Shown here in pieces: positions 25,100 through 30,623 of a stretch of DNA of 64,000 bases; positions within the stretch are counted from its first letter, which is position 1; each line of letters opens with the position of its first letter. The stretch is from contig FJOG01000007.1 in NCBI GenBank assembly GCA_900073065.1, positions 1,663,156 to 1,727,155 of the forward strand, written 5' to 3'. The DNA is from Phialocephala subalpina (lineage: Eukaryota; Ascomycota; Leotiomycetes; Helotiales; Mollisiaceae). Both the position numbers and the translations under genes were made by a program. The notes beneath the pieces are model-generated. The model did no database searches. It worked only from the letters and a program-made list of their open reading frames with translations, and was not told where the DNA came from.

Positions 25100-26300
25100 A
25101 TGGCGCCTCAACCCAGGCAAGGATTGCCTTCGCCAAAAACCATGCGAGCCTGGACACACATCCGCGCCGGTCTCCCCTCTGAAGTCCTCCACCTCTCGTC
25201 CGACATCCCAATACCAGCAACCCTCAAACCAGACGAAGTCCTCATCAAAATCTCCCACGCAGCCCTCAATCCTGGCGCCTCAGTCATGCTCCAATTAATC
25301 CCCATGTTCTTCCGTACCAAGCCCTCAATCCCTGAGCTCGATTTCTCCGGCACCATCGCCGAACTCGGCTCCTCCGTTGCTTCATCTCGAAAACTCTCCC
25401 CTGGAACACGAGTCTTTGGTTCTGTCGGACCTTTAGGCCAACACGTGAATAAGGGCAAAGGCGCTTTGGCTGAGTATGTTGTGCTTTCGTCGGAACAGGT
25501 GTATCCGACTCCTGAGGGGATGAAAGATGAGGAGGCAGCGGGGTTGGGAGTAGCTGGTTGTTCGGCGTTGGCGTATCTGGATATTGCGAAGATTAAAGAG
25601 GGAGAGAGAGTCTTGGTTAATGGGGCGAGTGGTGGGGTGGGGAGTTTGTTGGTGCAGATGGTGAAAAATGTTGTTGGAAGTAGCGGGCACGTGGTGGCAG
25701 TTTGTTCGGGGAGAAACGAGGAGTTGGTCAGGGGTTTGGGTGCTGATGAGGTTAGTGAGCTCAATCTGAAGGAGATGAGATGTGATTTGCTGACGAAAGT
25801 CAGGTCATTGACTACCGAGAACATGCTCCAGTTCACAAGTATCTGACAGAGAAGTATAGTCAGAACAAATTTGACTGGGTTCTCGACGCATACGGGATCC
25901 AAGATCTTTGGTTCAATTGTCCTTCGTATCTCAAGCCAGGAAAGCCGTTCCTGTCGATCGGTATTCAGGTTCCTGGTTATAAGTATTCAAGTCTGCTATG
26001 TGCAATTGGAAAGCTTATGAGCAATATGCTGTGGCCGAGATTTCTCGGAGGTGTTGATCGGTCGTATGCTCAGGTGAACGGGATTGCCAACTCGAAGGCG
26101 ATGGAGCGACTTGCTCGCATGGTCGATGAGTGGAAGTTGAAAGTTCCAATTGATTCTGTTTGGAGCTTCGAGGATGTTTTGCAGGCAAGTTCAACGCTTT
26201 TCGTTGTGTTCTTAGCTAACAGATGTAGGCATACGAGAAAATCATGAGCAAGCATGCAACAGGAAAGATCATTGTACGTGTAGATAATGTACGAAAATAG
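25100..26300 (+). CDS. MDR-family NAD(P)H-dependent oxidoreductase (RTN4IP1/quinone-reductase-like)
   Basis: Three exons: 25100-25750, 25804-26184 and 26229-26300, 367 residues. The first intron is 53 nt. The second, 44 nt, has a GC donor (CAG|GCAAGT) and restores FEDVLQ-AYEKIMSKHATGKIIV, the standard family ending. Features: GroES-like N-terminal domain (DEVLIKISHAALNPGA, ELDFSGTIAELG), Rossmann loop VNGASGGVGSLLVQMVK, then GADEVIDYREHAP with D-Y pair and FDWVLDAYG. The zinc-binding Cys of alcohol dehydrogenases are absent, so it should be a zinc-free reductase or quinone oxidoreductase using NADPH. Substrate unknown. Confidence 0.93.
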
Positions 26301-26599: not shown

Positions 26600-28168
26600 T
26601 TACATCTGCCCAAAGGTCGTTCGCGATGTTTGGTACTCGTCAAACCAACTCGTACCACTCGATATATTCTCCTCCCACTTGGAGACTTCATCCTCAACCT
26701 CAATTCTCATACCCTGGTAGTCACCATAGTCCTCCTCGTCGTCAGACGTCTCACCAATCTCTTCAATGACAAACGAAGTACCGGTAGCGGGTCCATAGCC
26801 ATATGGGAAGTATTTCGAGGCAGCTGCCTTTCGTGCTGCCTTCGCAGCCTCGACGTCCGCGGGAGAGACATAGGTTTGCTTCTCGATCTTCGCTCTCGCA
26901 TTCTGCGATCGTCGAACCCACTTCCAAGGATCTTCTGGGAAGCTTTCCAGCTCTTTCTTCGCAAAGTCGACGCCGAAGTCTAGATGAATGACATAGCAAG
27001 GGATGATCTGCGCAGCGTCAAATACTATGTACTCCAGGTTGTTGGGCGAAACGTGAGAATGAGCGGTCTCGTCTGCGATCTCGGTGGTACGTCTGGTCTC
27101 GTCTCTGGTGACAGGAAGTGCTAGACCCATGACGGTGGCACAGACAATGAGTCGAATTCCAGGAATGGCTTCAGGCTGTATTCTTCTTCCGAAGTTGAAA
27201 GCAGGATCCGAATACCATAGTGCATACTCGACGTCAGGGGATGTGTAGATGCCGACACCAAATGATGCTCCACACTCGACATCAATCTTCGTTTTTCCTG
27301 CTTTATCTCCAGGTTTCACAAAGCCATAGCGAACAATAGAAGAGACCTTGTGGCGCTGCGTTCCGTGAAACGTGACTCGTGGTTTGCATATCTCCTGAGC
27401 CAGGCCTTCCTGGGTGTCGAGAGCACTTCCGCGTCGAATCTTCATAGGGTCCACAGACTTTCGCAACTCGCCTTTTGATAGCTTCGCCACGTCGTCGTAT
27501 ATCGATTTTTGTCGTTTTTGAAAGCGATTTGTTAAGTCCGCACGAGTGACAGGCTCAACGTGAAGGATGCGATACGTCTCAGGGAAACTCTCGCAAATCT
27601 TCTTGATCGACGTGCCAAGCAGCTCATCAGCAGAAGTTTCGATTGTGCTGAGATCAACGCCCTTCGAATTGCTTGTAATGAGCTCTCTGACGTTGCGTCC
27701 ATCGATCTCGGCCAGATTCCAGCCGGCGTCAGGTGCTCGCTTTGCACCTGGCTTTGCGCTTTTCCACTCCTGGAGAAAGATGTTGGCTTCCTCGGCAAGG
27801 CGGAGCAATATCATCGCAAATCCTTTCATGTCGGATCTGCTCTCCAAAGGAGAAGATAAAAGATATCGAAGATTCCGCCGTAGAGGGTCGATATATGATC
27901 GTGACATTGTCCACGATGAGGCACGAACATGGACAGGATCCAGTACAGAATGGATGACGTCCAATGTCAGATCATCGAACTCGAAAGTCCATCCACTTTC
28001 GTCCTCGCAGCCCCAGCGGGTGATGCTTCTGGGGAGATGGCAATCAAGAATGTTGTTGAACTCTTGCGCTTCTCTAGCTCTGAGGTCGACGAACGTCCGC
28101 GCTTGGTTGAGCCATGGAGGATAATCTTCATATTCCTCATCCCCGTTTGACGGTGACGAAAAGTCCAT
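26600..28168 (-). CDS. PARP-fold ADP-ribosyltransferase with complete H-Y-E triad
   Basis: Single exon, 522 residues. The central region reads VTFHGTQRHKVSSIVRYGFVKPGD, then ECGASFGVGIYTSPDVEYALWYS, then LEYIVFDAAQIIPCYVIHLDF. These match the PARP catalytic core in order: His268 (HGT), Tyr308 (GIYTS) and Glu379 in the EYIVFD strand, at the place of the catalytic Glu of PARP1. Thus all three triad residues are present. N-terminal residues 1-250 contain no zinc finger, WGR, macro or WWE motif that I can see; the C-terminus is acidic (SDDEEDYGDY) and ends with a WFDEYQ motif. It may modify proteins or nucleic acids with ADP-ribose. No signal peptide, so intracellular. Confidence 0.87.
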   Translation of the reverse strand: MDFSSPSNGDEEYEDYPPWLNQARTFVDLRAREAQEFNNILDCHLPRSITRWGCEDESGWTFEFDDLTLDVIHSVLDPVHVRASSWTMSRSYIDPLRRNLRYLLSSPLESRSDMKGFAMILLRLAEEANIFLQEWKSAKPGAKRAPDAGWNLAEIDGRNVRELITSNSKGVDLSTIETSADELLGTSIKKICESFPETYRILHVEPVTRADLTNRFQKRQKSIYDDVAKLSKGELRKSVDPMKIRRGSALDTQEGLAQEICKPRVTFHGTQRHKVSSIVRYGFVKPGDKAGKTKIDVECGASFGVGIYTSPDVEYALWYSDPAFNFGRRIQPEAIPGIRLIVCATVMGLALPVTRDETRRTTEIADETAHSHVSPNNLEYIVFDAAQIIPCYVIHLDFGVDFAKKELESFPEDPWKWVRRSQNARAKIEKQTYVSPADVEAAKAARKAAASKYFPYGYGPATGTSFVIEEIGETSDDEEDYGDYQGMRIEVEDEVSKWEENISSGTSWFDEYQTSRTTFGQM

Positions 28169-29394: not shown

Positions 29395-30623
29395 ATGCTT
29401 GTGCGATCTTTTGCTGTTTTGATATGGCTACTGCTGGCTGAAACTGGTGTCGCGGGGCCACTTCCTCCAAGGTCGTCCAGTGGAGAAGCATTGGCAAGAC
29501 GAGAATATTTCTATGTTGGAGGAAACTATGTTACTACGGGAACTCAGCATTTATTCGCAGATCAGATGTATGTGGAGAAATTGAGTCCTGAGAAACCATA
29601 TCAGCCATATCCCCTGGTCTTCATTCATGGCCAAGGACAGACAGGCACCGTAAGCCACTACCGGTCCCAATCTTCGAAACGAAACTAATCATCGAAACAC
29701 CAGAATTGGCTTAACAAGCCAGATGGAGGATCTGGATGGGCTACTTTCTTCCTCAACCAAGGTTATGTTGTGTACATCATCGATCAAACGGAGCGGGGAA
29801 GAAGTGCCTGGAACCCGACTGGAAACACAACATTGACGACATATTCGGCGGAAATCATCGAACAGAGATTTACTGCGACTCAGAATTTCAGCCTCTGGCC
29901 ACAGGCCACTTTGCACACGCAATGGCCGGGAGTGAGTTATCCGTGGGCTCCATAATTCTCAGAATGCTGACTCTCAAGTAGTCAGGGCTCATGGGTGATT
30001 CCATTTTTGATGCGTACTATGCCTCTACAGTTCAGTTCCAGTCAAACACCGTCATCCAGGAGACGAAGATGCAAGCAGCAGGCTCAGCTCTCCTAAAGAA
30101 GATCGGCCCCGCAGTCTTGATCTCTCACTCCCAGGGTGGACTCATGCCATGGGTCATCGCAGACGTCGTTCCAGATCTCGTGAAAGCGATCGTCGCCATC
30201 GAACCTACAGGTCCACCATTCGTCGACGCTATCTTCACCACTGGACGAACACGCCCATACGGCCTAACCGACACCCCTCTCACATACTCGCCTGCTCCCT
30301 TAAATGCCACTGTGCCTTTGAGCACTCAGCAAATCCCAAACAATTCGTCAGGTCTAGCGACTTGCATTGTTCAGGCCGAGCCAGCGAGGCAGTTGGTTAA
30401 TCTTGCGAACATCCCGGTGCTTTTGGAGACGAGTGAATCGAGTTATCATGCCGTTTATGATGATTGTACGTTTTATTTCTTGAGGCAGGCTGGGGTTCCG
30501 GCTGAGAGGTTGAAGTTGGAGGACGTTGGGATACATGGGAATGGGCATTTGCATTTTATGGAGAAGAATAGTGATGAGATTGCTGGAGTGCTTGAGAGTT
30601 GGATTAAGAAGACTGTCGGCTAG
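29395..30623 (+). CDS. Secreted alpha/beta hydrolase (esterase-like)
   Basis: Three exons: 29395-29649, 29704-29931 and 29982-30623 (introns 54 and 50 nt), 374 residues. The N-terminus [20 protein letters not shown] is a signal peptide; a Met eight residues upstream gives a less tidy one. Conserved blocks: [22 protein letters not shown] (oxyanion), [15 protein letters not shown], nucleophile [11 protein letters not shown], and a catalytic His in [14 protein letters not shown]. Two Cys in the lid region (CIVQ, DDCTF) may form a disulfide. The family is common in saprotrophic fungi but few substrates are known. Its neighbour, the peroxidase at 31244, is also secreted. Confidence 0.93.

Follow-up and report, generated by a model that had tools for sequence, protein, structure and literature searches.

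The gene that concerns us here lies in a stretch of 64,000 nucleotides from the ascomycete Phialocephala subalpina (assembly GCA_900073065.1, contig FJOG01000007.1, positions 1,663,156 to 1,727,155 of the forward strand), which as a whole we call the window, and within it occupies the minus strand at 26600-28168. The open reading frame (ORF) has exactly these bounds, with its ATG at 28168 and the stop counted in, and the intron-free reading of 522 amino acids agrees with the match to the genome and with the homologues, which align along the length of the protein. Indeed, when the protein is searched against its own genome (68.1 Mb in 119 contigs) at E ≤ 0.001, the single match is the gene itself, covering all 522 residues and running through no stop. 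The domain order seems to be an RWD-like domain, a linker, a PARP-type ADP-ribosyltransferase (ART) and a conserved linear tail, and on balance we read the protein, from its sequence and structure model, as an active NAD-dependent PARP-type ADP-ribosyltransferase belonging to a family of Pezizomycotina in which RWD, ART and a constant tail follow one another. A preliminary description of this locus had proposed an orphan PARP-fold enzyme without accessory domains, and taken as a whole that interpretation is partly supported.

The catalytic domain and its family

The ART domain spans residues 171-402 (26963-27658, minus strand), and the three blocks that had been picked out in it are present in the order described, with His268 in the HGT block (27365-27367), Tyr308 in GIYTS, more fully GVGIYTS (27245-27247), and Glu379 in EYIVFD (27032-27034), all on the minus strand. 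The structure model predicts a PARP fold for this domain and was matched to PARP structures (PARP1, PARP2, PARP3 and PARP16 are missing among the 50 fold matches listed, a listing that does not exclude them), and the Pfam profile PF00644 scores 33.5 bits on the 522-residue protein, above its curated cut-off of 26.7. The gene is no orphan, as a protein search found at least 285 homologues at E ≤ 0.001 and a profile search at least 286 proteins; each search contributed its best 120 rows, and the two lists merged into 146 distinct proteins. Our conservation counts were made over 147 aligned rows and our Pfam survey over 62 aligned sequences. PF00644 is found in all 62 of these (E up to 1) and, since it also passes its cut-off in our protein and the homologues number at least 285, the match to the catalytic domain is, as sequence matches go, far above chance. 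The catalytic residues do not vary freely in the family, with His268 kept in 147/147 rows, Tyr308 in 145/147 and Glu379 in 138/147. Neither of the two outcomes that the preliminary description had named as refuting, a missing PARP fold or freely varying catalytic residues, was therefore observed.

This bears on the idea that the protein is a catalytically inactive or weak PARP, whose RWD domain and tail would let it serve as an NAD sensor or a scaffold. The rows in which the aligned Glu379 (9/147) or Tyr308 (2/147) is wanting would suit such a role, as would the finding, described below, that the tail is conserved above the catalytic core, but a dead site does not retain the three residues at such levels, and we consider the idea improbable. 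In the relatives P0036, P0038, P0055, P0056, P0085, P0094, P0104 and P0116 the catalytic Glu is replaced by Q, V, K or A within a block that is otherwise similar, and P0085 has His at the Tyr308 position as well; certain lineages may thus have an altered activity or none, or the gene models may be wrong.

The closest named relative among the matches listed is a protein of Acephala macrosclerotiorum (77% identity), and five named sources represent, one each, the Leotiomycetes, Orbiliomycetes, Dothideomycetes, Lecanoromycetes and Sordariomycetes, all of them Pezizomycotina. Many rows are nameless, and the remaining named genera we take to be Pezizomycotina too, a range that rests on the top 120 rows per search. 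The suggestion of a fungal branch with unspecified targets was, we accept, right. Databases already list family members, with 'PARP catalytic domain-containing protein' and 'ADP-ribosylation' among the names in use.

The ART fold is also common to the RNA 2'-phosphotransferases (Tpt1/KptA), and some faint signals lead in that direction: the PTS_2-RNA profile matches 5 of the 62 sequences weakly (best E 0.017), the sole two matches of a single-sequence search of the Protein Data Bank (PDB), at E 0.36 and 0.43, are of this kind, and NCBIfam models reach 11.5-14.9 bits against cut-offs of 231-239. All of these matches lie far under cut-off and centre on the part leading up to the HGT block, whereas PF00644 passes its own threshold and the H-Y-E set is complete, so that a phosphotransferase is hardly credible and we reject it as a weak and local resemblance. 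Nothing in that single-sequence PDB search was better than E 0.36; the matches to solved PARPs came from the family profile. YbjQ_3, which matches 11 of the 62 sequences (best E 2.9e-5; 18.3 bits in our own protein, against a cut-off of 27) and falls inside the ART region (residues 333-406), is taken as chance or a fold-level echo, and the matches to EAD8, Mis14, phage tail-tip J and others seem accidental.

The N-terminal domain and the conserved tail

The preliminary description had seen no accessory domain, and profile methods alone would lead to the same view: Pfam RWD has no match in the 522-residue protein, and accessory-domain scans with Pfam and NCBIfam gave only a sub-threshold RWD match in 1 of the 62 sequences (17.5 bits, under the cut-off of 22.8). 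The structure model corrects this, since residues 29-139 (27752-28084, minus strand) are modelled as a helix, four strands and further helices, matching solved RWD domains, and very probably form an accessory RWD domain, a non-catalytic fold of the ubiquitin-conjugating (E2) type. Identity to the RWD domains of GCN2, RNF25 and RWDD1, which match this fold and which to our knowledge occur without an ART domain, is 10-12%, and Foldseek alone, run on the N-terminal model, was not significant. We read the domain as non-catalytic because there is no majority-Cys column within the RWD segment. At least 70% of this segment is kept in 132 of the 147 rows. In the Acephala macrosclerotiorum relative (P0001), the gene model of 457 residues lacks some 65 residues corresponding to window positions 27740-27934 (minus strand; residues 79-143), which belong to the latter half of the RWD domain and to the linker; this gap is probably a wrongly predicted intron, because so many other rows keep the segment.

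RWD domains elsewhere are engaged in binding other proteins. That of GCN2 binds GCN1. RWDD3 is described as binding the SUMO E2 UBC9 (PMC10450202), and the RWD domain of the E2 UBE2Q1 as binding a bacterial protein that removes ADP-ribose (PMC10951314). The pairing of RWD with PARP is of course not new, because human PARP6 and PARP8 are predicted to contain RWD domains (PMC10450202), but our literature search found no publication on the RWD, ART and tail family, and in the portions of the literature that it covered we found no RWD domain joined to an H-Y-E PARP domain with a conserved tail.

The other end of the protein had been described as an acidic C-terminus, which is true as far as it goes; it is not merely acidic, as no other 40 residues in a row are so well conserved in this protein as residues 446-485 (RKAAASKYFPYGYGPATGTSFVIEEIGETSDDEEDYGDYQ; 26714-26833, minus strand). 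The mean majority-residue fraction over the 147 rows is 0.777 here, compared with 0.677 and 0.664 for the next non-overlapping stretches, residues 365-404 and 272-311, both in the ART domain, and the tail motif is thus conserved above the catalytic core, though it lies outside the enzyme domain. Block-mean values of the predicted local distance difference test (pLDDT) are 44-56 over residues 451-490, and a modelled helix at 436-453 takes in the first motif residues only; pLDDT values this low suggest disorder without proving it. Because the motif combines constancy with the want of a confident structure, its conservation suggests a strongly constrained role in binding. When the C-terminal 87 residues were searched against the own genome, nothing else was found at E ≤ 1, carriers beyond this genome not having been searched for. 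The SDDEE core of the tail resembles a site for the kinase CK2, which we take to be a candidate only, and the WFDEYQ element nearer the C-terminus (residues 508-513; 26630-26647, minus strand) is, by alignment, less conserved across the family.

Placement among fungal PARPs

Fungi were said in a 2010 survey, in its statements on this kingdom, to encode Clade 1 and Clade 6 PARPs only (PMC2964712), and by the features we tested the present family fits neither. A PF00644 scan of the P. subalpina genome gave at least five further places (L001-L005), four of them over the cut-off, and missed the present gene, so that its count of PARP genes is a lower bound. L001 is of the PARP1 type and combines the catalytic domain with a BRCT, a WGR and a regulatory domain; at L003 an adjoining ORF matches UBC, and L002, L004 and L005 (the last at 23.9 bits, under the cut-off) show a PARP domain alone in the scanned ORFs. 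The fungal Clade 1 enzyme L001 has its final Glu in NEYIAYD, as does the catalytic domain of the family in its own block, but BRCT, WGR and PARP_reg, all present in L001, have no match in the 522-residue protein or the 62 sequences, and WGR, PARP_reg and UQ_con are not among the 20 Pfam families matched by any of these sequences at E ≤ 1. By such sequence features the family is not Clade 1. A profile comparison with the own-genome PARP1 gave a probability of 31, from one sequence used twice and with its last exon absent, a value not comparable with the 96 reported next for Clade-6-like rows.

Clade 6 requires more thought, because one might imagine a derivative of it (PARP6/8, or FPE-PARP-UBC) that lost its UBC half and kept an RWD-like N-terminus. 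The FPE domain at the N-terminus of fungal Clade 6A, whose members combine FPE and UBC domains around the PARP domain, is said to bear some likeness to RWD (PMC2964712); with the prediction for human PARP6/8 (PMC10450202), an RWD-like and a PARP domain are therefore common to these proteins and the family, and a profile comparison of the family with the own-genome Clade-6-like rows gave a probability of 96 over 109 columns. That value, as we understand the profiles, shows a shared PARP domain only. Against such a derivation, the final catalytic Glu is given as absent from Clade 6 (PMC2964712), whereas most of the family keeps it, and the UBC domain is unmatched in the 62 sequences. PARP6/8 homologues of Clade 6 are described with a Cys-rich motif (PMC4245714), and this motif, as CX2CX9-19CX4C, occurs in 0/147 family rows, 2/5 Clade-6-like ORFs of the own genome (in L002 and in a single ORF of the L003 pair, but not in L004 or L005) and 5/8 Clade-6-like homologues, which came from a protein search with a Clade-6-like paralogue of this genome. 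In a tree of 27 rows and 224 columns, ten Clade-6-like rows form their own branch (97/99) with the family outside it. The tree used 13 of the 147 family rows (20 diverse ones were picked among 143 of fitting length, and 134 of the 147 were left out), and P0152 (which is without HGT/HGS), L003, tankyrase, PARP10, PARP14 and PARP16 were left out as well. The family is most likely not Clade 6, and we hold a Clade 6 derivative to be highly improbable. Clade 6E, for which one fungal protein, from Nectria, is mentioned (PMC2964712), lay outside the comparison.

In the same tree a branch at 71/88 sets the family apart from the other rows, and the family joins PARP12 and PARP15 at 87/91, where the branches are long and the program warns of their meeting. 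A profile of the ART domain, compared with solved structures over the best 60 of 64 rows, scored 26.5 bits with PARP12, 26.3 with PARP4, 25.6 with PARP15, 18.9 with PARP13, 18.8 with PARP14, 15.3 with tankyrase-2, 13.7 with PARP1, 13.3 with PARP10 and 11.2 with PARP2. Perhaps, then, Clade 3 is nearest by sequence, but it differs from the family in the catalytic Glu, since PARP12 and PARP15 have Ile and Leu opposite Glu379, PARP14 and PARP10 likewise carry a residue other than Glu, and CCCH, WWE and macro domains are not matched in the 62 family sequences. PARP4 (Clade 5), with the second-best score, does have a Glu at the same place, in DDEFVVYK, but its vault-type VIT and vWA domains are unmatched in the 62 sequences, as are the ankyrin and SAM domains of the tankyrases (Clade 4), whose profile score is much lower.

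That low score matters for what the enzyme makes. One could picture a tankyrase-like poly-ADP-ribose polymerase, having H-Y-E and no regulatory helical domain and being recruited by its N-terminal protein-binding domain, and the preliminary description had indeed taken the H-Y-E set as one that often serves to extend chains. Tankyrase-2 nevertheless scores well below PARP12 and PARP4, and the Clade 1 PARP L001 would account for the PARG-type gene of this genome. H-Y-E enzymes can moreover be mono-transferases: PARP3 carries H-Y-E. It is described as making mono-ADP-ribose only (PMC10789625), and the set itself thus does not show chain formation. Glu379 is, from the sequence, compatible with chain elongation and not sufficient for it, and we see a chain-making enzyme as unlikely, if the most serious of the competing readings. 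By analogy a mono-ADP-ribose product is weakly the more likely, because PARP12, PARP4 and PARP15, the nearest solved proteins by sequence, are named mono-ADP-ribosyltransferases in most listed entries.

Proposed mechanism and genomic context

PARPs generally bind NAD through the His and Tyr and use the Glu to activate its ribose (PMC10789625), and in the active transferase that we favour, His268 and Tyr308 would hold NAD, Glu379 would activate the ribose and ADP-ribose would be transferred to a protein. Control of this reaction by DNA breaks is unlikely because there is no match to the regulatory helical domain. The RWD domain might act as a non-catalytic docking module, bringing the enzyme to a ubiquitin or SUMO E2 or to a GCN1-type partner; we favour docking at a ubiquitin/SUMO or translation-stress complex because RWD domains are protein-docking modules, in the accounts we have of RWDD3, UBE2Q1 and GCN2. 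The motif at 446-485 could then be a second contact that binds one constant partner, or a regulator that lies in the active site.

Going a step further, and tentatively, we suggest that fungi may possess a third PARP type, not yet classified, in addition to Clades 1 and 6. It would be an H-Y-E enzyme that either arose in Pezizomycotina or was retained there; its RWD domain would link it to a ubiquitin-like or translation-stress machinery, and its control would fall to a seemingly unstructured motif, slower in evolution than the active site, whether as the site of a constant partner or as a built-in pseudo-substrate. Five or more classes of Pezizomycotina have the family, which seems to couple ADP-ribosylation to a docking domain of the E2-like kind in a lineage other than Clade 6. 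Should the tail motif bind a fixed partner, that partner could be directly retrieved, and roles of fungal ADP-ribosylation other than DNA repair would thereby become open to testing. Since the family already stands in the databases under generic PARP and ADP-ribosylation names, the surprise is a moderate one.

The nearest surroundings of the gene are an alcohol-dehydrogenase-like gene (ADH_N) at 25100-25843 and an alpha/beta-hydrolase-like gene, with a score slightly under cut-off, at 29991-30620, both on the plus strand; no functional link of either neighbour to the PARP-type gene is visible. Elsewhere in the genome, canonical PARG (PF05028) had no match, and its control likewise matched nowhere, so that absence is not to be inferred from this. 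Four macro-domain matches and one microbial-type PARG match (L008-L012) are possible erasers of ADP-ribosylation in the same genome.
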